Shown here one piece after another: positions 15,875-31,787 of a DNA stretch of 64,000 bases. Source of the DNA: Herbaspirillum huttiense. Its GTDB lineage: Bacteria; Pseudomonadota; Gammaproteobacteria; Burkholderiales; Burkholderiaceae_D. The notes beneath the pieces are model-generated. The model had not been told where the DNA came from and searched no databases. It saw only the letters and a program-made list of their open reading frames with translations. The first letter of the stretch is position 1. Each line of letters opens with the position of its first letter. Both the position numbers and the translations under genes were made by a program. The stretch spans positions 4,154,001 through 4,218,000 of the forward strand of contig NZ_CP037993.1 of the NCBI RefSeq assembly GCF_004367745.1, written 5' to 3'.

Positions 15875-17002
15875 TCAGAACGAGGTGCGCAGGCCGGCCG
15901 TGATCGCCCAAGGGCTGAAGCCGGGCGAGACCGTCGCGGAGGCCGAATTCAGCAGCGCAAACCCTTGCGTGGAGCGGCTGTTGTTGCGGATGGTCGTGGC
16001 GTAGGTATAGAGCTGGGTGCGCTTGGAGAGGAAGTACACGTAACCCACGTCATAGGCCATGGCATGGGCATCGCCGTTCTGCAGACGGCGTGCGGCCCCC
16101 AGTTCGACATCGCCTTGCCCAACCGCAATCCTGGCATTGAGCATGACAGCCGAGGAGAACCAGCCGGTGGCATCGGAGCGGGTCGAGTGCAGGTAGTTGG
16201 CCCCCACGACGTTGCTGCCGATCTTGTAGGTAGCGGCCACCACCTGGGTGATCTGCGAGGATGCGACTGCAGGGGAGGCGGCGGCATAGTAGCGATAGCG
16301 GTTGTAGCCATAGCCCAGCGTGTAGCGGTCGCGCGCATATTGCACATTGGCACCGATGTTGCGGCCTGCTTCACTTTGTACGCCGACATTTTCTGCACCG
16401 AAGGAATAGCCGATCTCGCTGGTCAGTCCGCCGAAGAGCACCGGGGTACGGTAGCGCAACGCATTGGGATAGAAGCCGCCAGTCCCGGACGTGCCCAGCG
16501 TGGAAGAATGTTCCAGCGACATGATGGCCGCCGGGTTGGCCAGTCCGTAGGTCGAGACATCCGAACTCAGGAAGACCCAGTAAATCGGCAGGTACAGGAG
16601 GCCGGCATCGATGCTGCCATAGGACCGGCTGGACAAGCCCACCGACGCGCCGCGATTGAACAGGGTCGTGCCTCCGCCAGCGCCGGTATCGGTGGAGAAG
16701 CCGGTTTCAAGCTGGAAGTTGGCACTGTTACCGCCGCCCAGGTCTTCGGCTCCACGAAATCCGAAGCGCGATGCTTGCAGATTGCCGCTGGCCATCGTCG
16801 GCGTGGTCGCAACGTTGCGATCAAACTTGCCCACCTGCAAGGCGGCATCTACGATGCCGTAAAAGGTCACGGAGGATTGGGCATGTGCCGTCGATACGCC
16901 GCTGGCCAGCAGACCGGCACCGGCCATCATGGCCAGCAGGCGGGCACGATGACGCAGGCTGGAACATGCGGTCTGGGCGAGAGGTATTTTTTTGTATTGC
17001 AT
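15875..17002 (-). CDS. Outer-membrane porin (beta-proteobacterial OmpC/DcaP-like family)
   Basis: Trimeric-porin-type protein of 375 residues. The signal peptide ends near STAHA, the mature N-terminus is QSSVTFYGIVDAALQVG, then come alternating beta-strands with SRFGFRGAEDLGGG, and the C-terminal residue is Phe (AGLRTSF), as needed for barrel insertion. It should let small anionic sugars cross the outer membrane. It is the last gene of the minus-strand SQ locus, 90 bases after the SDR stop, and that gap holds a 15/18 copy of the operator found at the main SQ promoter. Uptake of SQ or SQ-glycerol is therefore inferred from regulation and position, not from the protein itself. CAGGAG precedes the ATG. 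Confidence 0.9.
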   Translation of the reverse strand: MQYKKIPLAQTACSSLRHRARLLAMMAGAGLLASGVSTAHAQSSVTFYGIVDAALQVGKFDRNVATTPTMASGNLQASRFGFRGAEDLGGGNSANFQLETGFSTDTGAGGGTTLFNRGASVGLSSRSYGSIDAGLLYLPIYWVFLSSDVSTYGLANPAAIMSLEHSSTLGTSGTGGFYPNALRYRTPVLFGGLTSEIGYSFGAENVGVQSEAGRNIGANVQYARDRYTLGYGYNRYRYYAAASPAVASSQITQVVAATYKIGSNVVGANYLHSTRSDATGWFSSAVMLNARIAVGQGDVELGAARRLQNGDAHAMAYDVGYVYFLSKRTQLYTYATTIRNNSRSTQGFALLNSASATVSPGFSPWAITAGLRTSF

Positions 17003-17045
17003 GAAGTCTCCTGGTGTTGTTATGCGTGGATGAATGCTTGGAGGT

Positions 17046-17063
17046 CTGTGCAGCGCTGCGAAA
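17046..17063. promoter_or_regulatory. Probable LacI-family operator upstream of the porin gene
   Basis: CTGTGCAGCGCTGCGAAA matches the perfect palindrome at 28618-28635 at 15 of 18 positions; the core GCAGCGCTGCGAAA is identical. It sits 44 bases before the porin start, between the SQ dehydrogenase and porin genes. It suggests a second, locally regulated promoter or a roadblock site for the same repressor. Confidence 0.7.
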
Positions 17064-17092
17064 AGATGAATGCTTGCGTGATCCGCACTACC

Positions 17093-17914
17093 TCATCCGA
17101 CTACCGAGACCTGGGCCAGGCCGGCATCGACGATGAGGTTCTGGCCGGTAACGGCGGCGGCCTGGGGGCTGGCCAGGAACAGCACGCTGTCTGCGATGTG
17201 CGTAGGCTCGACGCGGAACTTGAGGCACTGCAGGTCGAGGAACTGGCGGTCCGAGCTGGCGTCGCGCCACAGCGCGGTCTGGCGTTCGGTCACCACGGCG
17301 CCTGGCAGCACCGCGTTGACGCGGATGCCGGCCTCGCCCAGCTCACGCGCTAGGGTACGGGTGATGCCCGAGATGGCGGCCTTGGACGCGGTGTAGCCGA
17401 TCAGGTTGGGACGGCCGCGCAGCCAGGAGATCGAACCGAGATTGATGATCGCGCCACCGCCCGCCTCGCGCATGCCGGGTGCGACGCGCTGGGTCGCGAA
17501 GACGTGATGGCTGAGATTGACCGAGAGCATGTCGTTCCACATCTCTACCGACAGCTCATCGAGACCATGGCGGGTGTCGCGACCGGCATTGTTGACCAGC
17601 ACCCGGATCGCCCCCAGTGCTGCAGCGGCGTGGTCCAGCACGACCTGATAGGCCGGAATGTCGCGTACGTCGCAGACGGCAAACCAGGGCGTGTGGCGCG
17701 CGGGAGCGCTGCCAGGCTGAGCGGCCAGGCGTTGGCACAAGGCCTGGCCGGCGGCCGGGTCGATGTCGCAGAAAGCGACTCGCGCGCCCTGCTCCCAGAA
17801 GGCCTTGACCAGTGCTTCGCCAATGCCGGACGCGCCGCCGGAAATGAAGACTACCTGCCCGGCCAGCCAGGGATAGCTGGCGCGAGGAAGGGGGGTGGAT
17901 GGAGAGGTGTTCAT
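17093..17914 (-). CDS. Sulfoquinovose 1-dehydrogenase (SDR family)
   Basis: Short-chain dehydrogenase of 273 residues. It has the Rossmann motif SGGASGIG (Gly26-Gly32), NNAG (108-111), and the catalytic Ser161, Tyr174 and Lys178 in GSIS...YTASK. The overall pattern (NNAGRDTRHGLDELS, VNLSHHVFATQ, QCLKFRVEP) resembles sugar 1-dehydrogenases such as Caulobacter D-xylose dehydrogenase. In this locus the expected job is NAD+-dependent oxidation of SQ at C1 to its lactone, the first sulfo-ED step. The start overlaps the end of the mutarotase gene by four bases. A pentose or galactose dehydrogenase would look alike; the assignment rests on the complete neighbourhood. Confidence 0.82.
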   Translation of the reverse strand: MNTSPSTPLPRASYPWLAGQVVFISGGASGIGEALVKAFWEQGARVAFCDIDPAAGQALCQRLAAQPGSAPARHTPWFAVCDVRDIPAYQVVLDHAAAALGAIRVLVNNAGRDTRHGLDELSVEMWNDMLSVNLSHHVFATQRVAPGMREAGGGAIINLGSISWLRGRPNLIGYTASKAAISGITRTLARELGEAGIRVNAVLPGAVVTERQTALWRDASSDRQFLDLQCLKFRVEPTHIADSVLFLASPQAAAVTGQNLIVDAGLAQVSVVG

Positions 17915-18810
17915 GCTGCGCTCCTGGGATCAGAAGATGGCACCGCGCTCAGTGACAGGCGCATCTCGCCTGCCAGGCGTTGACCGGGTTCTAGGATGTG
18001 CATGGCGGGGGCGATGCCATGCAGTGCATTGTTGGGATGGCTGACCGGCTCGAAGGCATAGAACGGCTGTCCGGACGGACGGAACAACACGGCGCAGCGC
18101 AACGCCGTACTGGCGGTCAGCGTGATGCGGTGATGCGGGCCGGTCATGATGGCCTGGCCGCTCCAGTCGGTAAAGCAGTTGTCGATCGTCAGCGTGTCGA
18201 GATGTCTGGTGTCCGGGGGTGGGACGCTGCCGCAGGGCAGCTTGTCGGGACCATTGAGCAGCATGGCCTGCCAGTGCGTCTGCAACTGCGTGGGTTGCGC
18301 CGCCGAGATCAGCGGGAAGAAAGGATGCCAGCCCAAGCCGCAGGGAGCCCGGCGCTGGTCGAGGTTCTTCACCTCCAGTTGCAGCACCAGATCATCGCCC
18401 TCCAGCGTGACGACCTGCGTGGCGCGCAAGGCGAAGGGCCACTCGCCTGCTGCGGGTGAGGCATGTTCCAGCTGCATCGTGACCGATTCCGCACTGCTGC
18501 TCCGCACCTGCCATGGTCGTTGGAAGCCCAGGCCATGGATGGCGTGCGGTTCGTTGTCGAAGTTGGCGGTGAGCACATACGCCCGGCCCTCGAAGCTGAA
18601 CGCCGCGTCGGCAATACGATTCGAAAACGGCAGCAAGGGATAGCAGGCGCTGCGCCGCACCAGTCCTTGCTGCAACGCTTCTTCGGCACTGGGCCGCAGC
18701 ACCGGCTGGCCGCGCCAGTTGGCGGAAGCAAGCGCCCCGCCCAATGCAGGCAGCACGCGCACCTGCCAGTCGCCCCGGACCAAATCGACCGCGAGCAACG
18801 GGGCCGGCAT
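17911..18810 (-). CDS. Sulfoquinovose mutarotase (aldose 1-epimerase family)
   Basis: Aldose-1-epimerase family protein of 299 residues, cytosolic. Conserved elements: PFSNRIADAAF (Asn64-Arg65), AIHGLGF (His92), the catalytic-acid histidine in GLGWHPFF (His162) and the base glutamate in YAFEPVSHPNNA (Glu254). It should interconvert alpha- and beta-SQ so that the sugar released by the glycosidase is the anomer the dehydrogenase needs. The one-base overlap with the aldolase stop and the four-base overlap with the dehydrogenase start show tight coupling. From memory, a mutarotase of this kind from Herbaspirillum has been studied biochemically; I could not verify this. Confidence 0.85.
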   Translation of the reverse strand: MPAPLLAVDLVRGDWQVRVLPALGGALASANWRGQPVLRPSAEEALQQGLVRRSACYPLLPFSNRIADAAFSFEGRAYVLTANFDNEPHAIHGLGFQRPWQVRSSSAESVTMQLEHASPAAGEWPFALRATQVVTLEGDDLVLQLEVKNLDQRRAPCGLGWHPFFPLISAAQPTQLQTHWQAMLLNGPDKLPCGSVPPPDTRHLDTLTIDNCFTDWSGQAIMTGPHHRITLTASTALRCAVLFRPSGQPFYAFEPVSHPNNALHGIAPAMHILEPGQRLAGEMRLSLSAVPSSDPRSAA

Positions 18811-19658
18811 CAGTAAGGTCCTCCGGCATTTGCCTGGGGTGCGGTCTGGTCGAACTCGGCGATGAAGGCATTGGCCTGGCGCATCATCATGCCCATGTCG
18901 GAAGCGATGGCGACGTAGTCATACCCCATCGCCACGAACTCGCGCACCATCAGCGGCGTCGGACCGACGATGCCGACCGGCTTGCCCACTGCGTGCGCAC
19001 GGCGGGCTACATCGGCAATGGCCGCGCGCACCTCGGCATCGGCCAGATTGCCGATCTTGCCCATGGCGGCCGACAGATCGCCGGGGCCGAGGAAGAGCGC
19101 ATCCACGCCCGGGACGGCGGCGATCTCTTCAAGGCGCGCAATGGCTTCGGGCGTTTCCAGCTGCACGATGCAGCTCACCGCTTCATCGGCACGGCGACCG
19201 AATTCGCTCCATGTGCCGTAGCGGCTGGCGCGGTGCATGGCGGCAAAGCCACGCGTTCCTTGCGGTGGAAACCGCATGGCCGCTGCAGCGGCACGGGCCT
19301 GCTCGACGGTCTGCACGAAGGGAAACATCAGCGTGGTGGCCCCCATATCGAGCGCGCGCTTGGCCAGCGTGTGATCATTGCTGGCCAGGCGCACGATGGG
19401 CATGGCGCTGCCGCAATCCACCGCGCGCAGCAGATTCTGCACGTCGGTGAATTCCAGCGGGACATGTTCCATGTCGATGAGCAGCCAGTCAAAGCCGGCG
19501 TGCGACAGCCCTTCGGCGCTGGCGCTGCCGCCCGACATCAGCCAGGTTCCCAATGGCGTGCTGCGCGCGGTGCTCTGCCGCGCGCGGGCCAGCATGCCGG
19601 CGAAACGATTGGCAGCCGGATCGCAGCGCTGCGAGGTGAAGGCGGTGGATGTAGTCAT
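18810..19658 (-). CDS. 2-keto-3,6-dideoxy-6-sulfogluconate (KDSG) aldolase, HpcH/HpaI family
   Basis: Class II pyruvate aldolase of 282 residues. Family residues are visible: His65 in IDMEHVPLEF, Arg90 in PIVRLAS, and the metal ligands Glu168 (VQLETPEA) and Asp194 (FLGPGDLSAAMG). The expected reaction in the sulfo-ED route is cleavage of KDSG to pyruvate, which enters central metabolism, and 3-sulfolactaldehyde. Ten bases separate it from the dehydratase stop, and its own stop overlaps the mutarotase start by one base. The same family splits 2-keto-3-deoxy acids in pentose and aromatic pathways, so the substrate comes from context. Confidence 0.83.
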   Translation of the reverse strand: MTTSTAFTSQRCDPAANRFAGMLARARQSTARSTPLGTWLMSGGSASAEGLSHAGFDWLLIDMEHVPLEFTDVQNLLRAVDCGSAMPIVRLASNDHTLAKRALDMGATTLMFPFVQTVEQARAAAAAMRFPPQGTRGFAAMHRASRYGTWSEFGRRADEAVSCIVQLETPEAIARLEEIAAVPGVDALFLGPGDLSAAMGKIGNLADAEVRAAIADVARRAHAVGKPVGIVGPTPLMVREFVAMGYDYVAIASDMGMMMRQANAFIAEFDQTAPQANAGGPY

Positions 19659-19668
19659 ACGGGTCCGA

Positions 19669-21411
19669 TCAGAAGATGGAAGGTTCGACCGGTGTTTCGA
19701 AACCGGTCAGAAAATCGAAGTCGCAGCCCTTGTCGGCCTGCGAGACGTGCTCCACGTAGAGGCGGATATAGCCGCGCTGGCGCGGCAGCGGCGGAGCCTG
19801 CCACTGGCCGCGGCGCTGAGCCAGCTCCTGCTCCGAGAGCAACACGTTGATGCTGCCGGCGGCAACGTCGAGCTCAATGATGTCGCCCGTGCGGATCAGG
19901 GCCAGCGGGCCACCCACGGCAGATTCCGGCGAGACATGCAAGACACAGGTACCGTAGTGGGTGCCGCTCATGCGGGCGTCGGAGATGCGCAGCATGTCGC
20001 GCACACCGGCGGCCAGCAACTTCTTGGGAATGGGAAGGTTGCCCCACTCCGGCATGCCTGGTGCACCGATGGGACCACCGCCACGCAAGACCAGCACGGT
20101 ATCGGCATCGACATCGAGGTCAGGATCGTGGATGCTGGCGTTCATCTCGGCAATCGAATCGAACACCAGCGCCCGCCCGCGATGCTTGAGCAGGTGCGGG
20201 CTGGCGGCGCTGGGCTTGATGACCGCGCCGTTGGGGGCCAGGTTGCCGCGCAGCACGGCCAGCGCAGCGCCCTCGGTCACCGGCTGGTCCAGCGGACGGA
20301 TGGCGGTTTCGTTGGCAGTGCGGGCGCTGGCCGCACAACGCGCCAGATTCTCGCCCAGGCTCAGACCGGTGACGGTGAGACAGTCGAGCGCCAGATGCGG
20401 CTTCAACTGGTCCAGCAGTGCGGGCAGGCCGCCGGCATAGTAGAAGTCTTCCATCAGGCGTGTGCCGGAGGGGAAGATGTCGGCCAGCACCGGGATGCCG
20501 GCCCCGACCTTCACGAAATCGTCCAGGGTCAGCTCCACGCCGCCGCGTCCGGCAATGGCGATGGTGTGGATGGCGGCGTTGGTGGAGCCCCCCAGGGCCA
20601 TGTAGGCGATGATGCCGTTGTCTACCGCAGAGCGGCTGAAGATGCAGCTGGGCTTCAGATCCTCCCACACCATGGCAACGATCCGCTCGCCACTGGCAGC
20701 GCACATGCGCGGATGCGCCGCATCCATGGCCGGGATGCTGGTGGCACCAGGCAGCGTGAAACCCATGGCCTCGACGATGGAGGTCATGGTGCTGGCCGTG
20801 CCCATGGTGTTGCAGGTACCGGGCGCGCGGGTCATGCGCGATTCCAGAGCGATCCACTCTTCCTTGTCGATGTTGCCGGCCACGTACTCATCCCAGAATT
20901 TGCGGGTGTGGGTGCCGGCACCGACCACCTGTCCGTTGTAGCGGTCGCTGAGCATCGGGCCGGCGGGTACGTAGAGGCAAGGCAGATCAGCAGAGAGCGC
21001 TCCCATCATGAGGCCGGGCGTGGTCTTGTCGCAACCGCCCATGAGGATGGCACCGTCGATCGGCAGCGAACGCAGCAGTTCCTCGGTTTCCATGGCCAGC
21101 ATGTTGCGGTAGATCATGGTGGTGGGCTTGACCATCACTTCGCCCAACGACATGGCGGGCAACTCCACCGGCAGGCCGCCGGCCATCAGGATGCCGCGTT
21201 TGACCACCTCGGCGCGTTCGCGCAGGTGGGCGTGGCAGGGCGAGAGATCGCTCCAGGTGTTGATGACCGCGATGACCGGCCGGGTCATGAAATCTTCCCG
21301 GCGCAATCCCATCTGCTGCAGGCGCTGGCGGTGGGCGAAGGAGCGCATGTCGTCCGGAGCGAGCCAGCGTTGACTGCGCAGGTCAGCCAGTTGTTTGCGT
21401 TTTTCTTGCAT
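19669..21411 (-). CDS. 6-deoxy-6-sulfogluconate dehydratase (IlvD/EDD family)
   Basis: IlvD/EDD dehydratase of 580 residues. The three cysteines expected to hold an Fe-S cluster are Cys59 (WSDLSPCHAH), Cys127 (GGCDKTTPG) and Cys200 (GTCNTMGTAST), at the same numbering as in sugar-acid dehydratases of the L-arabinonate type; SDARMSGT near the C-terminus provides the catalytic Ser. It would dehydrate sulfogluconate to KDSG. The start at 21411 is 18 bases after the exporter stop, and the aldolase follows after 10 bases. On sequence alone L-arabinonate dehydratase is equally likely; the sulfoquinovosidase, sulfolactaldehyde dehydrogenase and exporter in the same operon decide for SQ. Confidence 0.83.
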   Translation of the reverse strand: MQEKRKQLADLRSQRWLAPDDMRSFAHRQRLQQMGLRREDFMTRPVIAVINTWSDLSPCHAHLRERAEVVKRGILMAGGLPVELPAMSLGEVMVKPTTMIYRNMLAMETEELLRSLPIDGAILMGGCDKTTPGLMMGALSADLPCLYVPAGPMLSDRYNGQVVGAGTHTRKFWDEYVAGNIDKEEWIALESRMTRAPGTCNTMGTASTMTSIVEAMGFTLPGATSIPAMDAAHPRMCAASGERIVAMVWEDLKPSCIFSRSAVDNGIIAYMALGGSTNAAIHTIAIAGRGGVELTLDDFVKVGAGIPVLADIFPSGTRLMEDFYYAGGLPALLDQLKPHLALDCLTVTGLSLGENLARCAASARTANETAIRPLDQPVTEGAALAVLRGNLAPNGAVIKPSAASPHLLKHRGRALVFDSIAEMNASIHDPDLDVDADTVLVLRGGGPIGAPGMPEWGNLPIPKKLLAAGVRDMLRISDARMSGTHYGTCVLHVSPESAVGGPLALIRTGDIIELDVAAGSINVLLSEQELAQRRGQWQAPPLPRQRGYIRLYVEHVSQADKGCDFDFLTGFETPVEPSIF

Positions 21412-21429
21412 GATGTAGAAGCGTTGAAA

Positions 21430-22191
21430 TCAGGTTGGGGAAAGCGCCGGGGCCACCAGGCTGCCGCCGGCCACCAGCAATAACAGGAACACGATGCGTC
21501 GGACCGTCAGCGGTGACCACTGCGGGGGATGGCGGCGTGCCAGCCAGGTCACGCCCAGCACCACCGGCAGCGCTTCCAGGCTCAGCGCCAGCGATGCATG
21601 GTCGAAGCGGCCCTGAGCCAGCACGATCACCAGCCGCAGTACGGCGTTGACGGCAAAGAGCAGCACCAGCGTGTCGCGCACGACGACGCGGTCCAGCGGT
21701 TGCCGGTACAGGTGGAACACCATCGGCGGACCGGCACTGGCGAAGACGCCGCCCATGATCCCGGAGAGCACGCCGAAAAAGGCGAAGGAAGGCGCAGACG
21801 AGAGCTGCTCGCGCACCTGCGTCCGCAACACCAGCAACAAGCTGCACGCCAGAATGGCCAAGCCCAGCGCCAGCCGCAGCACGCCGATGGCATGATCCGA
21901 CATCCAGGCCAGCAGGCAGGCGCCCAGCCCCACGCCGATCAGGCTGCTGCCGAAGGCCGGCACGATCAGCGCACGCGGCAGGCCCGGTGCGGTGCGCACG
22001 ATCACCGCCGCATTGGCCAGCACCATGACGGTCACGACATTGGCCGCCACCGCCAGCGGGGCCAGGTGCAGCATCGCCACCAGTCCCAGCAGCACCAGCC
22101 CGAAGGCAAACCCGGTGAGGCTCTGCACGAAGGTCGCCAGCGCCACGCAAGCGACGAAGAGCAGATGGCTGCCGATGCCGTTGAGCAGCAT
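21430..22191 (-). CDS. TauE/SafE-family exporter, probably for sulfolactate
   Basis: Membrane protein of 253 residues with about eight hydrophobic helices. It shows the two-fold TauE/SafE pattern: an N-terminal half with FVQSLTGFAFGLVLLGL and a second half with GVLSGIMGGVFASAGPPMVF. Members move sulfonates or sulfite out of the cell. Sulfo-ED bacteria cannot use the C3-sulfonate end product, so export of sulfolactate is the natural role. The ATG at 22191 overlaps the TGA of the sulfoquinovosidase gene by one base, so the reading frame upstream of it is not part of the protein. An uptake role cannot be excluded. Confidence 0.82.
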   Translation of the reverse strand: MLLNGIGSHLLFVACVALATFVQSLTGFAFGLVLLGLVAMLHLAPLAVAANVVTVMVLANAAVIVRTAPGLPRALIVPAFGSSLIGVGLGACLLAWMSDHAIGVLRLALGLAILACSLLLVLRTQVREQLSSAPSFAFFGVLSGIMGGVFASAGPPMVFHLYRQPLDRVVVRDTLVLLFAVNAVLRLVIVLAQGRFDHASLALSLEALPVVLGVTWLARRHPPQWSPLTVRRIVFLLLLVAGGSLVAPALSPT

Positions 22192-24254
22192 CAGAGACTC
22201 CGCGCCAGCGCCAGGAATTGCTCGGCGCGTGCTGCGCCTGCCCGTACGAAGACCGGCGGCTGGCCCAGCGGTGCAGCCACTTGCACACGCTGGCCGCCAG
22301 CGTGGCGCTGAGCGCTCCACAGATGCAGCCAGTCATCGCCCAGGGGCAGGTAGGCACTCCAGCAGTTGGCCTCCGCCGCATGCACGGGCGCGACCAGCAA
22401 GTCGGGACCATAGAGATACTGGTCCTGTATGGCGTAGGTGGCGCGGTCCTGTTCGTAATGCAGGAACAGCGGACGCTGCAGCGGCAGGCCACGGGTGGCG
22501 GCTTGTTCGGCCAGTTCCTCCACGTAGGGCTTCAGGCCGACGAACAGACGCGTCATCCGGGCAAAATGCGCCAGCACAGCCGGGTCCTGCCAGAACTGGA
22601 AGTTCTCGTCGGGACGGTTGCCTTCGTGGGTGCGCATCATGGGGGTGAAGGCCGCCATCTCGGCCCAGCGCTGGAACAGTTCCGGCGTGCGGCGGTTGCC
22701 GAACAGGCTGGTGTAGCCGCCGATATCGCTGTGGTGGTAGGCATTGCCCAGCAGCCCCGATGAGAGCGCGCCGCAGATCACGGTCTGTAAACCGTCATGA
22801 CGGCTGAAGTCGACCGATTGGTCGCCCGCCCACAGCAGCGGGCAGTGCGCCTGTACACCGGTATAGCCGGCGCGCATGAAGAACACCGCGTCGCCGGTAC
22901 GCCCGGCGTCGGCGATGGCGCGGGCGTTGACCTCGGCCCACAGCGTGGGCCAGGCATTGTGCATCAGCATGGCTGACTGGCCATTGGCCAGAGTGACATC
23001 GGTGGGCAGGTATTCGCCGAAGTCGGCCATCCAGCCATCCAGGCCCTGGTCAAGCATCTCGTCGCGGATGACGCGCTGCTCGAACCAGCGCGCGGCTTCC
23101 GGCTGGGTGAAATCGACCACGCCGCAATCGAATTCACCGAAGTCGACCAGATAGTCGCTGCCATCGGCGTGGGTCGCCAGGAATCCTTGGGCGTGTGCTT
23201 CGCCATAAAGCGCGCCATCCACGCACAGATAGGGATTGACGTAGCCGAGGAAGCGCACGCCCTGCTGCTTCAATTGCGCCAGCCAGTCGGCGTGGCCGGG
23301 ATAGCGCTGCGCGTTCCAGCGCCAGTCCCAGAACAGGCGCTTGCCGAACGAGGTCTGACGGATACCGACCCAGTCCTCGCACCACAGGCCGCTGACGGCC
23401 AGGCCTGCGCTGCGGCTCTGCTCAAGGATGGTGGCGGCATGTTCGCGGCCATTCTTCAGGCCGAGAATGGCCCCGTCGAGTACCCACGACGGCAGGCGCG
23501 GCTGGCGGCCGAAGCGCTGCGAGATGCGTTCCACCAGGGTCGGGAAATCATCGGCCAGCAGGAATTCGATGCGCTCGGGGATGGCCCAGAATTGCAGCTC
23601 GTGATACGTCCCGGCGCGAAAATCGAAGTCGGCATAGGCGGTGGTGTCGGCGTGCAGGCAATAGCGCTGCGACGACACGAAGCTCGGTTGCGGATAATTG
23701 GTGTGGTAGTAGTCGCCACCGGCCTTGGCGGTGACGTCGGCCTGCCAGGTCAGGTAGGTACTCTTGTCTCGTCCGACGCCTGGCTCGGAGGTCCACAACG
23801 GAAAATGACGGCCGCGCAGGTCGAAGTAGGACATCTGCTCGCCACACCCCCAGACGTGTTCCTCGGTCTGGGCCGGCACGCGCCACCAGAGGCGGTTGGC
23901 GATGGCGCCAGCGGTGCTGCCCGACCGTGCGCACAGGCTGAACTGCACGCCATGGGCCTGACGGATCGCCATCAGTACCAGCTCGGGCTCGCTGTGGGCA
24001 TCGCGGGCAAAGCTGACCTGCACGCTGCCATCGGCCTGCACCGCGTGCTGTGCGTAGCGCAGGGCAATGCGCTCCTCGACGTAATCGCTGATGTCGAAAT
24101 TGCCGCGATACATGGCCACGCTCTCCCGGCCATAGCCAATGAAGACTGCCGGCGCCTGTGGCGAATGGGCAAGTAGCAGGCGGCCCGCCACGTCCAGTTC
24201 GAGCCGGCCATCCTCATGCTGGGTCCAGCGCATGGTATTTCCTGTGTGTGTCAT
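22191..24254 (-). CDS. yihQ: Sulfoquinovosidase (GH31, YihQ type)
   Basis: Glycoside hydrolase family 31 enzyme of 687 residues that frees SQ from SQ-glycerol or sulfolipid. It follows E. coli YihQ closely along its whole length (GCGEQMSYFDLRGRHFPLWT, WMADFGEYLPTD, HHSDIGGYTSLF, MMRTHEGNRP). The nucleophile is Asp411 (MADFGEY) and the acid/base Asp478 (WAGDQSVD). Sulfonate-pocket residues line up as Lys267 (GLKNGRE), Glu293 (LWCEDW), Arg306 and Trp309 (FGKRLFW) and Tyr514 (GGYTS). This is the Lys-Glu-Arg-Trp-Tyr version known from an Agrobacterium enzyme, where E. coli has Gln-Gln. No signal peptide, so it acts in the cytosol after uptake. The start at 24254 has AAGGA upstream, 22 bases after the importer stop. 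Confidence 0.92.
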   Translation of the reverse strand: MTHTGNTMRWTQHEDGRLELDVAGRLLLAHSPQAPAVFIGYGRESVAMYRGNFDISDYVEERIALRYAQHAVQADGSVQVSFARDAHSEPELVLMAIRQAHGVQFSLCARSGSTAGAIANRLWWRVPAQTEEHVWGCGEQMSYFDLRGRHFPLWTSEPGVGRDKSTYLTWQADVTAKAGGDYYHTNYPQPSFVSSQRYCLHADTTAYADFDFRAGTYHELQFWAIPERIEFLLADDFPTLVERISQRFGRQPRLPSWVLDGAILGLKNGREHAATILEQSRSAGLAVSGLWCEDWVGIRQTSFGKRLFWDWRWNAQRYPGHADWLAQLKQQGVRFLGYVNPYLCVDGALYGEAHAQGFLATHADGSDYLVDFGEFDCGVVDFTQPEAARWFEQRVIRDEMLDQGLDGWMADFGEYLPTDVTLANGQSAMLMHNAWPTLWAEVNARAIADAGRTGDAVFFMRAGYTGVQAHCPLLWAGDQSVDFSRHDGLQTVICGALSSGLLGNAYHHSDIGGYTSLFGNRRTPELFQRWAEMAAFTPMMRTHEGNRPDENFQFWQDPAVLAHFARMTRLFVGLKPYVEELAEQAATRGLPLQRPLFLHYEQDRATYAIQDQYLYGPDLLVAPVHAAEANCWSAYLPLGDDWLHLWSAQRHAGGQRVQVAAPLGQPPVFVRAGAARAEQFLALARSL

Positions 24255-24276
24255 TGCATTCCTTGCTTGGTTCGGT

Positions 24277-26010
24277 TCAGCGGATAGCCGCGGCAGCGCG
24301 GGCGCGGCCAGCATCGGCGGCATGGACGCGACGGCGCAGCACCACCAGCAGCAGCACGGCCACGGCCCAGGTCAGGCCCATCCACAGGTAGTACTGCTGG
24401 GTCACGCCGCCGGCGCGCGCCACGCCCAGCGGCGAGAAGGTCAGGTAGACACTCACCAGCAGGGCCATCAGCAGCACGCTCATGCGACTGGCATAGCGCC
24501 AGGGCGTGAGATCGCCATGCTGACGGATATGCGCCTGGTAGGGCTGCGCGCGGCGGAAGAACTGGCCCAGCACCAGCATGAGCAGCACTTCGGTGACGAA
24601 CAGCATGCCCATGATATGGATGAAATGAATGCCATAAGTGCTGTCGACCTTGAAGACGAAGATCAGCAGGGTGTAGGCGATCACATGCAGCAACAACACG
24701 ATCTTGGCGGGCAGTGTATCGATGCGGCCATTGAAAAAGCCCATCAGCACCACCGCAATGATGGGAATGTTGAAGAAGCCGCTGAAGCGGCGCATGACCG
24801 TGTAGATGCCGTCGGGCGCGAACATCAGCAGCGGGGCGATCAACAGCGAGATCACAGCCACTGCGATGCTGGCCATCTTGCCCACGCGAATCATCTTCTC
24901 GTCGCTGGCATCGGGTTTCCAGACGCGATAGAAGTCGAAGGCGATCAGGGTCGCGGTACTGTTGATGACGGCATTGAAGTGGCTCATCACGGTACCGAAC
25001 AGCACGGCCACGAAGAAGCCCTTGGCCCACCACGGCAGCAGGTCGGCCACCAGTTGGGGATAGGCCAGGTCGGGACGCGCCAGGGGGTTGCCGGCATACA
25101 GGTGATAGGCGATCACGCCGGGCATCAGCATGATGATGGGCACCATCAGTTTGAGCAGCCCCGACAGCAGCACTCCCTTCTGCCCTTCGGCCAGATTCTT
25201 GGCCGCGAAGGTGCGCTGGATGATGGACTGGTTGGTGCACCAGTAGAACAGGTTCGCAAAGATCATGCCGGTGAAGACGGTGCCGAACGGGACTGAATCA
25301 TGCGCCCCGCCAATGGCCGACAACTTCTCCGGCGCTTCGGTGGCGACCACGTGCAGGCCGGCGAAAAAATCGCCCTGGCCCAGCGCCAGCAGCCCGAGCG
25401 CCGGCACCATCAGTCCGGCGATGAGCAGACCCACGCCGTTGATGGTGTCGGATACGGCCACCGCACGCAGGCCGCCGAAGACTGCATAGAGCGCACCGAT
25501 GACACCGGAGATCCACACCAGTGCGGTAATGGTGACCGGATAGGAGGTGCCGAATGCCTGCTGGACGCCGAACACCTGGTTGAAGGTGATGGCCCCCAGG
25601 TACAGGCCTGAGGGATTGACCACCAGCATGTAGCTGATGACAAAGAAGGCACTGACGACGCGGCGGGTGGTGGCGTCAAAACGCTCTTCAAGGAACTGCG
25701 GCAGGGTCGAGAAGCCGCCGCGCAGATAGCGCGGCAGGAAGAACATGGCCAGCGCCACGGTCGCCACCGCAGCGGTGCACTCCCAGGCCATGGCCGAGAG
25801 ATTGTGGGCGTAAGCGTCGCCGTTCAAGCCCACCAGTTGTTCCACCGACAGGTTGGTGAGCATCATGGAGCCGGCGATGAACCAGCCATTGAGTCCGCCG
25901 CTGGCCATGAAGTAGCCGCGCGCGCCGACATCCTTGGCGCGCCGGGTGAACAGGTACGACACATAGGCCACCAGTGCCGTAAAGAGGATGAAGCTGAGTA
26001 GGGTAATGAT
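24277..26010 (-). CDS. Sodium/solute symporter (SSS/SglT-like), probable importer of SQ or SQ-glycoside; non-canonical start
   Basis: Inner-membrane symporter of about 577 residues with some 14 helices. Family features include RRAKDVGARGYFMASGGLNG, the sodium-site region NLSVEQLVGLNG, and NQSIIQRTFAAKNLAEGQ, typical of sugar-type SSS carriers. The first ATG/GTG-type start in frame is GTG at 25971, which would cut off half of helix 1 (TLLSFILFTALVAYVSYLF). A perfect AAGGAG lies at 26022-26017 and is followed by ATC-ATC-ATT, so initiation at ATC 26010 (spacing 6) or ATT 26007 (spacing 9) is more likely. It lies 83 bases after the dehydrogenase stop and directly before the sulfoquinovosidase gene. 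Substrate inferred from context. Confidence 0.82.
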   Translation of the reverse strand: MITLLSFILFTALVAYVSYLFTRRAKDVGARGYFMASGGLNGWFIAGSMMLTNLSVEQLVGLNGDAYAHNLSAMAWECTAAVATVALAMFFLPRYLRGGFSTLPQFLEERFDATTRRVVSAFFVISYMLVVNPSGLYLGAITFNQVFGVQQAFGTSYPVTITALVWISGVIGALYAVFGGLRAVAVSDTINGVGLLIAGLMVPALGLLALGQGDFFAGLHVVATEAPEKLSAIGGAHDSVPFGTVFTGMIFANLFYWCTNQSIIQRTFAAKNLAEGQKGVLLSGLLKLMVPIIMLMPGVIAYHLYAGNPLARPDLAYPQLVADLLPWWAKGFFVAVLFGTVMSHFNAVINSTATLIAFDFYRVWKPDASDEKMIRVGKMASIAVAVISLLIAPLLMFAPDGIYTVMRRFSGFFNIPIIAVVLMGFFNGRIDTLPAKIVLLLHVIAYTLLIFVFKVDSTYGIHFIHIMGMLFVTEVLLMLVLGQFFRRAQPYQAHIRQHGDLTPWRYASRMSVLLMALLVSVYLTFSPLGVARAGGVTQQYYLWMGLTWAVAVLLLVVLRRRVHAADAGRARAAAAIR

Positions 26011-26093
26011 GATCGTCTCCTTGTAGTTTCTTCATTCTTTCTTCGGGCCGTCTCGACGGACTGGCCCTGTCGTCATGCTGCAAGGGCTGGCAT

Positions 26094-27560
26094 TCAGGCC
26101 ACCTGCAGGCAGAGGTATTTCAGTTCCAGATACTCCTCGATTCCGTACTTCGATCCTTCGCGACCCAGGCCCGACTGCTTGACGCCACCGAACGGTGCCT
26201 CCGCCGTGGAGATGAGACCGGTGTTGACGCCCACCATGCCGAACTCCAGCGCCTCGGCGACGCGCCAGACTCGGGCCATGTCGCGGGTGTAGACATAACT
26301 GGCCAGGCCATATTCGGTATCGTTGGCGTGGCCGATGACTTCCTCTTCGCTTTCGAAGCGCAGCACGGGTGCCACCGGTCCGAATATCTCTTCGCGTGCC
26401 ACGCGCATGGACGGCTTCACGCCGGTCAGCACGGTGGGCGCGAAGTAGCGCGCCTGTTCATCGCCGTCCAGTACCACCGGGGTGCCGCCGCAGACGATGC
26501 GCGCGCCCTGGCTGCGCGCGTCCTCCACCAGTTCGCTGATCTTCTCCAGCGCGCGGGCATCGATGAGCGGCCCGATCTGGGTACGCGGTGCGCGGCCATC
26601 GCCCAGCACCAGCTTGCTGGCACGGCTGGCCAGGCGCTCGACGAAGGCATCGTAGAGACCGGACTGCACGTACATGCGATTGCTGCATACACAGGTCTGG
26701 CCGCCATTGCGGTACTTGGAAATCATGGCGCCCTCGATCGCCGCGTCCAGATCGGCGTCGTCGAAAACGATGAAGGGTGCATTGCCGCCCAGCTCCAGCG
26801 ACAGCTTCTGGATGTGACCGGCCCCCTGCGCCATCAAGCGCGCACCGACAGCGGTCGATCCAGTGAAGGACAGCTTGCGCACCACCGGGTTGCCGGTCAG
26901 CTCGGCACCGATGGCTTCGGGATGGCCGGTCACCACATTGAGCACACCCGGCGGAATGCCGGCGCGCTCGGCCAGTGCCACCATGGCAAGCGCCGAATAC
27001 GGTGTCTGGCTGGCCGGCCGGATCACCATGGTGCATCCCGCAGCCAGTGCCGGCGCGGCCTTGCGGGTGATCATCGCTGCCGGGAAATTCCACGGCGTGA
27101 TGGCTGCGCATACGCCAACAGGCTGGCGCAGCGTGAGCAGACGACGGTCATTGGAGGGACTGGCGAGGACATCGCCGTTGATACGGCGCGCCTCTTCGGC
27201 AAACCATTCGATGAAGCTGGCGGCAAAGGCGATCTCGCCACTGGCCTCGGACAGCGGCTTGCCCTGCTCGGCGGTCATCAGCAAAGCCAGGTCTTCCTGG
27301 TTTTCGATCAGCAGCGCATGCCAGCGGCGCAGCAGCGTGGCGCGTTCCTTGGCGGTACGCGCGCGCCAGCCGGGCAAGGCCGCTTCCGCAGCCTGCACGG
27401 CGGCGCGGGTCTCGGCCGTCCCCATGGCCGGCACCGTGCCCAGGATCAGGCCGGTGGCCGGATCCGTGACGGCGATGGTCGTGCCATCCATGGCATCCTG
27501 CCAGTGGCCGCCAATGGGGCATTGCATCCGGAACAGGTCGGGATCGTGGAGCGAAAGCAT
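26094..27560 (-). CDS. 3-Sulfolactaldehyde dehydrogenase (aldehyde dehydrogenase family, GabD-like)
   Basis: Aldehyde dehydrogenase of 488 residues. The nucleophile is Cys290 (GGQTCVC), the general base Glu256 (LSLELGG) and the oxyanion Asn158 (TPWNFP). It resembles succinate-semialdehyde dehydrogenases, matching an anionic short aldehyde such as sulfolactaldehyde, which it would oxidise to sulfolactate. One oddity is IRPASQTP, where most relatives have Lys in KPA..TP; here it is Arg181. The frame stays open upstream into the lactonase gene, but family alignment starts at MLSLHDPDLF (27560). It lies 55 bases after the lactonase stop. Confidence 0.87.
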   Translation of the reverse strand: MLSLHDPDLFRMQCPIGGHWQDAMDGTTIAVTDPATGLILGTVPAMGTAETRAAVQAAEAALPGWRARTAKERATLLRRWHALLIENQEDLALLMTAEQGKPLSEASGEIAFAASFIEWFAEEARRINGDVLASPSNDRRLLTLRQPVGVCAAITPWNFPAAMITRKAAPALAAGCTMVIRPASQTPYSALAMVALAERAGIPPGVLNVVTGHPEAIGAELTGNPVVRKLSFTGSTAVGARLMAQGAGHIQKLSLELGGNAPFIVFDDADLDAAIEGAMISKYRNGGQTCVCSNRMYVQSGLYDAFVERLASRASKLVLGDGRAPRTQIGPLIDARALEKISELVEDARSQGARIVCGGTPVVLDGDEQARYFAPTVLTGVKPSMRVAREEIFGPVAPVLRFESEEEVIGHANDTEYGLASYVYTRDMARVWRVAEALEFGMVGVNTGLISTAEAPFGGVKQSGLGREGSKYGIEEYLELKYLCLQVA

Positions 27561-27615
27561 GTGATGAAGATCCTTGGAGAGTGAAAGTGGTTCGATACTG
27601 GAGGACGTTGCCGGC

Positions 27616-28572
27616 TCACCCGCGCCAGCGCGGCTCGATGCAGCCGGGCACGTCGGTACGCATGGCAAACAAGCCGCCTGCCAGCGGCTGCTGCGCCAAC
27701 TCTTCGCCGGGCCGACCGGCACGGGCGCTGGTGATGAAGAGCGTACGCAGGTCGGCACCGCCAAAGGCGCACATGGTGGGGCACTGCACGGGCAAGGGAT
27801 AGCGCGCCACGACGCTGCCGTCAGGGGCAAATCGCACAAGTCGACCGCCTTCGTAGAAGGCGCTCCAGTAATGTCCTTCGGCATCGACCGCAGCGCCATC
27901 GGGGCGGCCCCGGTCCGTGGCCGTGGGAGTGATGGTGGCCCAGACCTGGCGCGGCCCGCAGTCACCGGTGATCGGATCATAGCTGCGCCGCCAGATGACG
28001 AAATTGGGGGTGTCGGAATGGTACATCCAGCGTCCGTCGGGGCTGAAGGCCAATCCGTTGGAAGTGAGCAGGCCATCGGCCAGGACCTCCAGAGCGCCGG
28101 AGGGGCGCAGGCGATAGAGGTGGGCACGCGCGCCGGACTTCGGTTCGTCGATGGTGCCGGCGAGGAAGCGCCCGGCCGGATCACAGCGACCGTCATTGAA
28201 GCGACTGCCGGTCTGATCTTCAGGATTGACGGCCAGTTGCTGCTGCATCTGCCCTGCTCCGTCCAGTTCCCACAGACCTGAGCGCAGCCCGGCGATGTAG
28301 CCGCCGTGCTCACCCAGCGATACGCAGCCAATCGCTTCCGGCAGAGTGACGTAGCTGTCCTCGCCGGTGGCGGGATCATAGCGGTGCAGTCGCTGCTTCA
28401 GGATATCCACCCAGACCAGATGCTGACGCTGCTCATCCCAGCGCGGGTATTCGCCCAGCACGGCGGCGGCAGGCAGGACGCAGACCGGCTCGAAAGCGGG
28501 CACGCCCTCAAGCAGCACCTGCAGCGGGCGCGGTACAGCGGGGACGGCTGCGGCAGCGAGTGAATTCAACAT
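27616..28572 (-). CDS. Sulfogluconolactonase (SMP-30/gluconolactonase family)
   Basis: Six-bladed beta-propeller lactonase of 318 residues. The divalent-metal ligands expected for the family are visible: Glu41 (GEYPRWDE), the substrate-binding FNDGRCD (Asn126-Asp127), Asn172 (TSNGLAFSPDG) and Asp225 (GRPDGAAVD). It should open the SQ lactone made by the SDR enzyme to sulfogluconate. It is the first gene of the operon. The start at 28572 is 46 bases from the nearest operator edge; an upstream in-frame extension would run across the operator and promoter and is rejected. Lactonases for glucose or pentose lactones look similar, so the substrate follows from the locus. Confidence 0.86.
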   Translation of the reverse strand: MLNSLAAAAVPAVPRPLQVLLEGVPAFEPVCVLPAAAVLGEYPRWDEQRQHLVWVDILKQRLHRYDPATGEDSYVTLPEAIGCVSLGEHGGYIAGLRSGLWELDGAGQMQQQLAVNPEDQTGSRFNDGRCDPAGRFLAGTIDEPKSGARAHLYRLRPSGALEVLADGLLTSNGLAFSPDGRWMYHSDTPNFVIWRRSYDPITGDCGPRQVWATITPTATDRGRPDGAAVDAEGHYWSAFYEGGRLVRFAPDGSVVARYPLPVQCPTMCAFGGADLRTLFITSARAGRPGEELAQQPLAGGLFAMRTDVPGCIEPRWRG

Positions 28573-28617
28573 CCTGTGTCCTGCATGAAAGTGAGGGGAA
28601 TGAGCACAGAAACACGC

Positions 28618-28635
28618 TTTCGCAGCGCTGCGAAA
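28618..28635. promoter_or_regulatory. Perfect 18-bp operator palindrome at the SQ promoter
   Basis: TTTCGCAGCGCTGCGAAA reads the same on both strands. It begins where the -10 box ends and covers the expected start site of the minus-strand operon. The central CG-rich palindrome is typical of LacI/GalR-family operators, and the divergent neighbour encodes such a regulator. Confidence 0.88.
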
Positions 28636-28664
28636 TAATAGCGCTGCGAAATTGTTCTTGTCAA
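28635..28664 (-). promoter_or_regulatory. Sigma-70 promoter of the SQ operon
   Basis: On the minus strand TTGACA (28664-28659) is followed after 18 bases by TATTAT (28640-28635), a near-consensus promoter. The lactonase start lies 63 bases downstream of the -10 box. Confidence 0.85.
28640..28651. promoter_or_regulatory. Operator half-site inside the promoter spacer
   Basis: AGCGCTGCGAAA repeats the right-hand 12 bases of the palindrome exactly, 16 bases centre to centre, and lies between the -35 and -10 boxes. A second dimer could occupy it with lower affinity. Confidence 0.65.
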
Positions 28665-28824
28665 TTGGAATTGGCACCGGCATGCGGGTAGCGGAAATCG
28701 GCCAAGGGAACTCCCCGCCCCCCCCGTGGAGAGTGGCCGGACAAGCAGCGCATGACTGGGGGACCTGCTGCGTCTAAAATGGCCGCTTGATGCACTGTTG
28801 CGGCCCGGCCGCCCTCACCGTCCC

Positions 28825-29907
28825 ATGTCCCAGAACAACAAGACCGCCGCGCGCAGCCGACGCGGCACCAATCGCGTCACGATGGAAGATGTCGCCGCGC
28901 GCGCCAAGGTCTCGGCCAGTTCGGTCTCGCTGTACCTGCGCAATCCCGAGGCTGTCTCGCCGCGCCTGTCGCCGCGCATCAAGCGCGCCATCGACACCCT
29001 GGGCTATGTGCCCAACAAGCTGGCCGGCAGCCTGGCGGCGGCGCGCACGCGGGCGATCGGCGTGATCGTGCCCTCGCTGGGCAACGCCTTCTTCACCGAG
29101 ACGGTGGCGGCCTTGCAAAAGGAATTTGATCGCCACGACTACCAACTGCTGCTGGGTGCGACCGAATACGACCTGGAGCGTGAAACCGAGCTGGTGCGTA
29201 CTTTCCTCTCCTGGTCGCCAACGGCGCTGGTGGTAACCGGATGTCATCACAATGAAGCCACGCGCACCTTGCTGCGCATGGCCGACACCCCCGTGGCGGA
29301 AATGTGGGAGATCGGCGAAGAGCCGTTTCATTTGCAGGTCGGTTTTTCCCACGTGGCGGTGGGCGAAGTGATGGCGGCGCACCTGCATCAGCAGGGTGCC
29401 ACCCGTATCGCCTTCGTGGGGGCGCGCATGGACGCCGACCGGCGCGCCGGTCAACGGCGCGATGGATTTTGCCAGGCACTGGCACGGCATGGCATCAAAC
29501 CGTTGGTGATCGATACCGGCAATGATGTGTCACCTGCTGCCGGCGGCCTCGCGCTACGCCAGGCCCTCAAGCAGCAACCCGGCCTGCAGGCGGTGGCCTG
29601 CGCCAACGATGTATTGGCCCTGGGGGTACTGTTCGAGGCACAGCACCGGGGACTGGCAGTGCCGCGACAACTGGCCGTCACCGGTTTCGGCAACCTGCCG
29701 TATTCGCAGGTTTGCGTCCCCCCGCTGACCACGGTACAACCGCATGCAGCGGAAATCGGTCTGCGCGTGGCGCAAGAACTGCTGGCGCAACTTCAGCGCG
29801 ACGAAGCGCCAGAACAGGAAGAGGATAGTGACGATGGCGCCACCAAGGTGGTCGATGTCGGTTTCGAACTGATCCTGCGCCAGAGTTCGAGCCATCGCTT
29901 CAAATGA
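28825..29907 (+). CDS. LacI-family transcriptional regulator of the SQ locus
   Basis: LacI/GalR regulator of 360 residues. The N-terminal helix-turn-helix and hinge (VTMEDVAARAKVSASSVSLY, then LGYVPNKLAGSLAAARTRAIG) are followed by a periplasmic-binding-protein-like sensor domain (GVIVPSLGNAFFTE, CANDVLALG, TTVQPHAAEIG). It is read divergently from the SQ operon and most likely binds the palindromes at 28618-28635, 28640-28651 and 17046-17063, with SQ, SQ-glycerol or a pathway intermediate as inducer. Start: ATG at 28825; an in-frame TTG at 28798 is possible. A Glu/Asp-rich patch (APEQEEDSDDG) near the C-terminus is unusual for the family. A perfect-stem terminator follows. Confidence 0.9.
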   Translation: MSQNNKTAARSRRGTNRVTMEDVAARAKVSASSVSLYLRNPEAVSPRLSPRIKRAIDTLGYVPNKLAGSLAAARTRAIGVIVPSLGNAFFTETVAALQKEFDRHDYQLLLGATEYDLERETELVRTFLSWSPTALVVTGCHHNEATRTLLRMADTPVAEMWEIGEEPFHLQVGFSHVAVGEVMAAHLHQQGATRIAFVGARMDADRRAGQRRDGFCQALARHGIKPLVIDTGNDVSPAAGGLALRQALKQQPGLQAVACANDVLALGVLFEAQHRGLAVPRQLAVTGFGNLPYSQVCVPPLTTVQPHAAEIGLRVAQELLAQLQRDEAPEQEEDSDDGATKVVDVGFELILRQSSSHRFK

Positions 29908-29947: not shown

Positions 29948-30799
29948 TCAGAGCTTTTCGGTCTCCCCGCTCTTGGGCTGCCATTTCATGAGCCGTTTCT
30001 CGATCACCCCCACGGCCAGGTCCAGCACCAGCGCAAAGATGGTCAGCACGACGATGCCGGCAAAGACGGTGTTGATGTCGAAGCTGCCCTCGGCCTGCAG
30101 GATCAGGTAGCCCACGCCACGCGCCGAGCCCAGGTATTCACCGACCACCGCACCGACGAAGGCCAGGCCGATGGACGTGTGCAGACTGGAAAACACCCAT
30201 GAAGTGGCCGAGGGCAGGTAGACCGTGCGCAGCAGCTGACGTGCATTGGCCCCCAGCATGCGGGCATTGGCCAGTACCACCGGGCTGACTTCCTTGACGC
30301 CCTGGTAGACGTTGAAGAAGACGATGAAGAACACCAGCGTCACCGCCAGCGCCACCTTGGACCAGATGCCCAGGCCGAACCACATCGCGAAGATCGGCGC
30401 CAGGATCACGCGCGGCATGGAGTTGGCGGCCTTCACATAGGGATCGAGGATAGCCGAAGCGGTCGGCGAGAGTGCCAGCCACAGGCCGATGGCCAGGCCG
30501 AAGACGGTGCCGATGATGAAGGCCAGCACGGTTTCGGTCAGCGTGATCAACAGGTGTGAATAGATTTCTGCCGGGAAGCTGAGCGTGAAGAAGGTGGTGT
30601 CGCCCATGCCCACTTCCAGCGAGCCACTGCCGACGGTGAACCATTCCCAGATGCGCTGCGCCACCTTCAGCGGTTCGCCGAAGAAGAAGGCGGTCTGCGG
30701 ATTGCGCGTGGCCACGTGCCAGACCAGCAGCACGATGGCCAACACCATCAACTGCCAGAAACGGATGTTCTTGTGATTCGGTTTAAATAATTTCCACAT
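29948..30799 (-). CDS. ABC transporter permease (SsuC/TauC/ThiX-like)
   Basis: Inner-membrane permease of 283 residues with about six helices and the binding-protein-dependent transport signature (ANSMPRVILAPIFAMWFGLG). It belongs to the nitrate/sulfonate/pyrimidine-precursor importer family. Third gene of the binding protein-ATPase-permease unit; 36 bases separate it from the ATPase stop. Substrate unknown. Its position beside the SQ locus is suggestive only, as the two units are separated by a terminator and are convergent with the regulator gene. Confidence 0.88.
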   Translation of the reverse strand: MWKLFKPNHKNIRFWQLMVLAIVLLVWHVATRNPQTAFFFGEPLKVAQRIWEWFTVGSGSLEVGMGDTTFFTLSFPAEIYSHLLITLTETVLAFIIGTVFGLAIGLWLALSPTASAILDPYVKAANSMPRVILAPIFAMWFGLGIWSKVALAVTLVFFIVFFNVYQGVKEVSPVVLANARMLGANARQLLRTVYLPSATSWVFSSLHTSIGLAFVGAVVGEYLGSARGVGYLILQAEGSFDINTVFAGIVVLTIFALVLDLAVGVIEKRLMKWQPKSGETEKL

Positions 30800-30835
30800 G
30801 ATGCAGATTCTCTTCCCTGATCTTTTCGGTACGGC

Positions 30836-31645: not shown

Positions 31646-31704
31646 GGTGGTACGGGCGGTTGCGGCCCGGTTGGAGGAGACGAAAGAACTTGAAAGGAAG
31701 CTCA

Positions 31705-31776
31705 GCGCTCCCGGCCCAAGATGCGCAAATGCCCGTTGCCGGGCATTTGCGGTGCGTTCGCACGGGCCGGGAGCGC
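31705..31776. repeat. Large cloverleaf-like inverted-repeat structure between binding-protein and ATPase genes
   Basis: Nested perfect inverted repeats: outer arms of 13 bases (31705-31717 with 31764-31776, GCGCTCCCGGCCC), an inner hairpin of 11-base arms (GCAAATGCCCG, 31725-31735 with 31740-31750, loop TTGC) and a small hairpin GTGCG-TT-CGCAC (31752-31763). In RNA this gives a three-way junction 11 bases after the binding-protein stop, without a T-run. It may protect the upstream message or cause partial termination, so that binding protein exceeds ATPase and permease. Confidence 0.8.
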
Positions 31777-31787
31777 CGGGCCTGTGC

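Follow-up and report, generated by a model that had tools for sequence, protein, structure and literature searches.

A predicted sulfoglycolytic Entner-Doudoroff operon for sulfoquinovose in Herbaspirillum huttiense, of a kind already published for the genus

Sulfoquinovose (SQ) is the sugar of plant sulfolipids and among the most abundant organosulfur compounds. For an understanding of the sulfur cycle it is therefore useful to know which bacteria associated with plants can convert it to pyruvate and sulfolactate. Clusters encoding the sulfoglycolytic Entner-Doudoroff (sulfo-ED) pathway occur in alpha-, beta- and gammaproteobacteria (PMC9594981, PMC12890257). Two published clusters belong to Herbaspirillum: (i) a predicted sulfo-ED operon of H. 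seropedicae AU14040, described as analogous to that of Pseudomonas putida and 'lacking in synteny' with it, the mutarotase of the Herbaspirillum operon having been assayed (PMC5902678, 2018), and (ii) 'Cluster 6' of H. huttiense IAM 15032, which lies beside pentose clusters and whose genes "appear to be responsible" for SQ (PMC6336799, 2019), a role that is only assigned, the available text of that paper holding no SQ biochemistry. Here we describe a locus within a 64,000-nucleotide stretch of the H. huttiense contig NZ_CP037993.1 (the window), which very probably constitutes a LacI-regulated sulfo-ED operon for SQ and its glycerides.

The SQ operon is real, was read correctly in an earlier note made from the letters of this DNA, and is already known for the genus, sulfo-ED/SQ clusters having been published for Herbaspirillum (PMC5902678, PMC6336799). 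The operon of H. seropedicae AU14040 shares with it the genus name, the pathway and the numbering of the mutarotase catalytic residues, and Cluster 6 of H. huttiense IAM 15032 shares the genus name and the separation of an SQ cluster from pentose clusters, as in this genome. The P. putida SQ1 system uses the same enzyme families, and its dehydrogenase is the nearest solved relative of the one found here, with the SQ contacts kept; its gene order is reported to differ from that of the Herbaspirillum operon (PMC5902678). A betaproteobacterial form of the pathway with a gene order of its own, to which the earlier note drew attention, exists, but was already described in 2018 and 2019 in the two papers on the genus. 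The main outcome is thus a confirmation, since both the pathway and its occurrence in the genus were in print before. There appear to be three small additions: a near-consensus promoter in which two LacI-type sites are nested, a probable AUC start of the symporter gene, and the absence of the aldehyde dehydrogenase gene from its place in 4 of 10 related loci.

Analysis with Pfam and open reading frames (ORFs) gave a minus-strand run from 28572 to 15875, encoding, in order of transcription, an SMP-30 lactonase, an aldehyde dehydrogenase (ALDH), a sodium symporter of the SSS family, a GH31 glycosidase, a TauE-type protein, an IlvD/EDD dehydratase, an HpcH/HpaI aldolase, an aldose 1-epimerase, a short-chain dehydrogenase/reductase (SDR) and a porin. 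Every sulfo-ED family named earlier for this run was recovered by Pfam at its place. The gene set is not a product of chance, because its order recurs in 10 of the 23 loci obtained by scanning genome contigs with the SDR (L005-L014; Paraburkholderia, Burkholderia and Herbaspirillum); the gene-order maps leave out matches that score below 60 bits or are overlapped by a stronger match, and the genome holding the window is itself counted in the distribution figures. The activities, transported substrates, inducer and end product named below are predictions from sequence. The following features were distinguished:

15875..17002, minus strand: outer-membrane porin (Pfam Porin_4, E=4.7e-40), probable entry pore for SQ or SQ-glycerides; adjoins the SDR gene in 10/10 loci L005-L014
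17046..17063, no strand assigned: operator-like site 5' of the porin gene, with 3 mismatches to the palindrome at 28618
17093..17914, minus strand: predicted sulfoquinovose 1-dehydrogenase (SDR; Pfam adh_short_C2, PF13561)
17911..18810, minus strand: predicted sulfoquinovose mutarotase of the aldose 1-epimerase family (Pfam Aldose_epim)
18810..19658, minus strand: predicted KDSG aldolase of the HpcH/HpaI type (Pfam PF03328, E=3.5e-36; family-level assignment)
19669..21411, minus strand: predicted sulfogluconate dehydratase, IlvD/EDD (Pfam PF00920/PF24877)
21430..22194, minus strand (predicted start; ORF 21430-22320): TauE/SafE-type transporter, presumed sulfolactate exporter (Pfam TauE, E=1.5e-17); present in 10/10 loci L005-L014
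22191..24254, minus strand (predicted start; ORF open to 24323): predicted sulfoquinovosidase (Pfam GH31)
24277..26013, minus strand (probable AUC start; ORF 24277-25971, frame extending upstream): SSS (SGLT-like) sodium symporter, presumed importer of SQ or SQ-glycerol (Pfam SSF, E=8.2e-48)
26094..27560, minus strand (ORF 26094-28379): predicted sulfolactaldehyde dehydrogenase, a GabD-like ALDH (Pfam Aldedh, E=2e-174)
27616..28572, minus strand (ORF 27616-28683, likely start 28572): predicted sulfogluconolactonase, SMP-30/SGL (Pfam SGL, E=6.5e-82; family-level assignment)
28618..28664, minus strand: predicted operon promoter with two LacI-type operator-like sites
about 28825..29907, plus strand (predicted start; ORF from 28798): divergent LacI/GntR-type repressor, presumed SQ-responsive (Pfam LacI and Peripla_BP_3)

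The SDR, mutarotase and aldolase ORFs overlap their neighbours by a few bases, as in an operon, and the lactonase start at 28572 proposed earlier agrees with the likely start inside its ORF. In the proposed pathway, the porin and then the SSS symporter would admit SQ-glycerol or SQ, from which SQ would be freed by the GH31 sulfoquinovosidase, and the mutarotase would balance its anomers. The SDR would then oxidize SQ to sulfogluconolactone, which the SMP-30 lactonase would open; the IlvD/EDD enzyme would dehydrate the resulting sulfogluconate to KDSG, the HpcH/HpaI aldolase would split KDSG into pyruvate and sulfolactaldehyde, and the ALDH would convert the latter to sulfolactate, for which the TauE-type protein is the probable way out of the cell. 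Transcription from the lactonase promoter would be repressed by the LacI protein as long as this has bound neither SQ nor an intermediate.

Substrate evidence and competing explanations

The best solved match of the window SDR is the P. putida SQ dehydrogenase (PpSQDH; 9gwu, E=3.3e-75), followed by 7wwx and 4lvu. In PpSQDH, the catalytic tetrad is formed by N119, S147, Y160 and K164, the sugar is contacted by D99, R101 and Q198, and the sulfonate is bound by R152 through a salt bridge and by R154 via water (PMC12133307). All nine catalytic and SQ-contact residues are present in the window protein (N133, S161, Y174, K178, D113, R115, Q212, R166 and R168, respectively). Among the SDR sequences of the loci fetched, 29 of the 36 scoring above 100 bits keep the nine residues (SDR rows of 100 bits or less, and ALDH rows of 150 or less, were dropped before counting); the 29 include the window's own gene (L038), and L009, L039 and L047 are one genome. 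One sequence (L024) is partial, yet keeps the Arg pair corresponding to R152 and R154, and the pair is absent in 6 of the 36, which carry Leu-Leu (L040, L042), Gln-Gly (L041, L043, L044) or Ser-Asn (L025).

The six top solved matches of the GH31 protein (5ohy, 5ohs, 8r56, 6pnr, 5aed and 5aee) score at least 739 bits, against 165 for the next GH31 enzyme, with E values of about 1e-281 for 5ohy and 5ohs. The deposited name is YihQ for four of them (5ohy, 5ohs, 5aed and 5aee), with sulfoquinovosidase given as well for 5aed, whereas 8r56 and 6pnr bear general names. Residues K290, E316, R329, W332 and Y537 of the window protein match identical residues of 5ohy in the alignment, as do the nucleophile D434 and the acid D501 (the nucleophile column was compared for the window protein only). 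We take K, E, R, W and Y to be the sulfonate-recognition motif 'KERWY', no paper having been found under this motif name, and 5ohy to be an Agrobacterium protein.

The third residue-level match is that of the mutarotase, in which His92, His162 and Glu254 stand at exactly the numbers that they have in HsSQM, the assayed enzyme of H. seropedicae (PMC5902678). Together, the SDR, the GH31 protein and the mutarotase support, at the level of residues, the sulfo-ED reading first proposed for this DNA. The ALDH also keeps the catalytic Cys, Glu and Asn of RlGabD of Rhizobium and both Arg residues proposed to bind the sulfonate (PMC10599462).

Several observations weigh against the assignment to SQ, or weaken it: (i) the best NCBIfam model for the SDR is D-xylose 1-dehydrogenase, under its cut-off (288 vs. 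400 bits); (ii) NCBIfam names the dehydratase L-arabinonate dehydratase (890 bits, cut-off 882); (iii) a sister cluster (L010) has Gln in the mutarotase His92 column; (iv) the lactonase and the aldolase are assigned at the family level only, the nearest solved relative of the latter being 2-dehydro-3-deoxygalactarate aldolase; and (v) of five further ALDHs compared from this genome, three also have the RlGabD residue set, so it is not diagnostic and does not identify the substrate. The dehydratase belongs to the IlvD/EDD family, a placement which by itself does not settle its substrate.

A variant of the sulfo-ED pathway, in which sulfolactate is broken down inside the cell to sulfite and the TauE-type protein exports sulfite, is very unlikely. 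The genome holds one PF02615 (Ldh_2) protein, and ComC presumably belongs to this family. The galactarate dehydratase model is matched by both PF04295 proteins of the genome, one above and one below its cut-off (948 and 392 vs. 731 bits); each exceeds 500 amino acids, SuyB being shorter, and neither looks like a sulfolactate sulfo-lyase. All six matches to the xsc model are under the cut-off (best 299 vs. 676 bits), and no gene for sulfolactate breakdown was found in the cluster, in a partial search in which SuyA and SlcC were not sought. In favor of the variant, the TauE/SafE family is named for sulfite export and one member was so assigned in a sulfofucose degrader (PMC12421959). The release of sulfolactate anticipated in the earlier note is consistent with the xsc and PF04295 results, within the bounds of that partial search; the TauE-type protein is its presumed exporter.

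Extremely unlikely is a non-phosphorylative degradation of L-arabinose or D-xylose, in which the SDR, lactonase, IlvD protein and aldolase would act on pentoses. Such pathways are present in Herbaspirillum (PMC6336799), and the two NCBIfam names given above point to them. The dehydratase label is borderline and an unreliable guide, because two sister-cluster orthologues score 881 and 877 bits, just under the cut-off of 882, and the genome paralogue at L044 scores 841. With the D-xylose dehydrogenase model, the SDR paralogue at L044 reaches 338 bits, compared with 288 and 289 for two SQ-cluster SDRs (cut-off 400). This paralogue is the window genome's own, adjoins an IlvD protein and forms with it a separate IlvD-SDR pair of pentose type elsewhere in the genome; it has Gln-Gly in place of the Arg pair. 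The pair is lacking in all five same-genus SDR paralogues examined (L040-L044, from 48 paralogue matches listed), and its absence was taken as the mark of the pentose type, a criterion derived from these paralogues and not from a published definition; the window SDR has Arg-Arg. The operon also includes a YihQ-type GH31 and a TauE-type transporter. The statement that, were it not for the glycosidase, the locus would be read as pentose degradation needs correction: besides the YihQ-type GH31, the sulfonate-side Arg pair of the SDR is independent evidence against such a reading. The Arg pair and the sister-cluster scores argue against a pentose reading drawn from the NCBIfam names, and where automatic names mislead, the residue test tells SQ dehydrogenases apart from the paralogues examined.

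A sulfofucolytic Entner-Doudoroff cluster, acting on the galactose-type sulfosugar sulfofucose, is scarcely credible: the pathway of Paracoccus wurundjeri Merri shares the logic of oxidation, lactone opening, dehydration and retro-aldol cleavage, a PF13561 dehydrogenase, a lactonase, a PF03328 aldolase and, in some clusters, an aldose 1-epimerase, but its dehydratase SfcF is of PF13378/PF02746, for which the ten cluster proteins scanned gave no match (E 0.001), where the window has PF00920 (IlvD/EDD), and the described clusters have ABC importers where the window has an SSS protein and a YihQ-type GH31 (PMC12421959); this reading was rejected on account of the different dehydratase family.

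Promoter, regulator and symporter start codon

The predicted sulfo-ED operon is preceded, 5' of the lactonase gene, by a near-consensus promoter (11 of 12 positions) composed of a -35 box TTGACA from 28664, an 18-nucleotide spacer and a -10 box TATTAT ending at 28635; a 401-base stretch contained 2 promoter-like sites vs. 0.1 expected from shuffles. Downstream of the -10 box lies a perfect 18-bp palindrome, TTTCGCAGCGCTGCGAAA (28618-28635); the spacer and the -10 box itself are covered by another copy, which is imperfect (28635-28653). The exact 18-mer occurs at one place in the genome. When 3 mismatches are allowed, it is found at 6 places vs. 4 for a reversed control, so that the loose match is weak evidence alone; one of the 6 is the site upstream of the porin gene (17046). 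With 4 mismatches allowed, 0.25 matches are expected in the shuffled 64-kb window (20 mononucleotide shuffles). A 4-mismatch match also lies inside the aldolase gene (19619), possibly by chance.

The gap between the LacI and lactonase genes contains two core copies at L005, L006, L009 and L010, which are all four of the loci L005-L014 with a readable gap; at L009 both copies are imperfect and fall below detection at 4 mismatches. One match with 4 mismatches is present in the gap of L016, and none at up to 4 mismatches in that of L015. A further palindrome-like site precedes the SSS gene in 9 of the 10 loci L005-L014 (the exception being L009); the window has no such site 5' of its SSS gene.

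The gene encoding the LacI protein is located on the plus strand, beyond the segment 15875..28572 delimited in the earlier note. Of the 10 loci L005-L014, six end inside the lactonase gene; the other 4 extend to the LacI gene, which is divergent in each. The nearest NCBIfam model of the LacI protein is the gluconate repressor GntR, under the cut-off. LacI control, proposed earlier, gains support from the near-consensus promoter with its nested operator-like sites, which offer a predicted operator for this regulator; the LacI protein would bind these candidate sites and sense SQ or an intermediate.

The SSS protein, whose nearest solved relative is the sodium/glucose cotransporter 2xq2, is encoded in a frame with no ATG, GTG or TTG at the expected start. 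In the region compared (25971-26031), the start column reads ATC in the window (26013) and at L005, L006, L009 and L010, and ATG at L007, L008 and L011-L014; a GGAG motif lies just 5' of the start codon in the window and each of these relatives, and the first GTG of the window frame aligns with GTC in them. The SSS gene is probably translated from a conserved non-standard AUC start. We tentatively propose, at somewhat short of even confidence, that SQ or SQ-glycerol is imported by a sodium-coupled, SGLT-like SSS protein, with the AUC start acting as an expression brake and a LacI-type SQ repressor acting on a paired operator inside the promoter. No description of the AUC start, the operator or an SSS-class importer for SQ was found in the literature searched, which was available in part and excluded most subscription papers, the one match on SQ and symporters being a tobacco-leaf metagenome study. 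An SSS importer for SQ may be undescribed in that literature, and the protein, with its unusual start codon, is a candidate for sodium-coupled SQ import.

Beside the LacI gene, SsuABC-like ABC genes (29948-32825, minus strand) were considered as members of the system and rejected, since in the Herbaspirillum relative (L048) they were not detected in the roughly 8 kb covered on the far side of its LacI gene; the best ABC models matched their products only under the cut-off, and the genes are probably unrelated to the SQ cluster. Of the neighbouring ORFs, 5 of 10 gave no Pfam match and are probably wrong frames.

Distribution of the cluster

The order of the window was found at the ten SDR loci L005-L014. 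The ALDH gene lies between the lactonase and SSS genes in six of them (L007, L008, L011-L014) and was not detected there in four (L005, L006, L009 and L010); in the Herbaspirillum relative among the latter (L009, sp. LeCh32-8), the nearest ALDH (63%) is encoded on another contig. The last step at these four loci must use another gene or end differently.

At the remaining 13 of the 23 loci the set is partial, fragmented (L016) or reduced to a distant SDR. At L016 (Candidatus Burkholderia humilis), matches to the SMP30, ALDH, SSS, GH31 and IlvD proteins lie in separate pieces, which suggests a decayed copy of the cluster. Partial sets with an SDR carrying the SQ residues were found in Pandoraea (L015) and in Rhodoferax, Polaromonas and uncultured betaproteobacteria (L017-L021); no YihQ-type GH31 was detected at these loci within the stretch covered, some contigs being short, and they may use another sulfoquinovosidase. 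Still fewer cluster genes are present at L022-L024, and L025-L027 have only a distant SDR (27-35%) besides generic matches.

The distribution of the trait is patchy. Of the 25 genus genomes covered by a search of 41, two (G000 and G010) have a full-length sulfoquinovosidase; two weak matches at 28% are other GH31 proteins. At the family level the enzyme was found in 12 of 294 genomes, which belong to 2 of 44 genera, and at the class level in 2 of 369, the second of which (G342) has Q, Q, R, W, Y. Two of 34 genus genomes encode an SDR of at least 79% identity, and the best match in the others reaches 49%.

In another genus of the same family (g292), seven of the ten matching genomes were looked at (L067-L073); no IlvD or HpcH homologue was detected within 19 kb, and the loci encode a sulfoquinovosidase, SDR, lactonase, ALDH, mutarotase and TauE-type protein. 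At one of them (L067), which was scanned further, an ABC substrate-binding protein is also encoded, and adjacent genes specify a kinase of the FGGY family and a DAO-family protein whose C-terminal domain is of the glycerophosphate-oxidase type.

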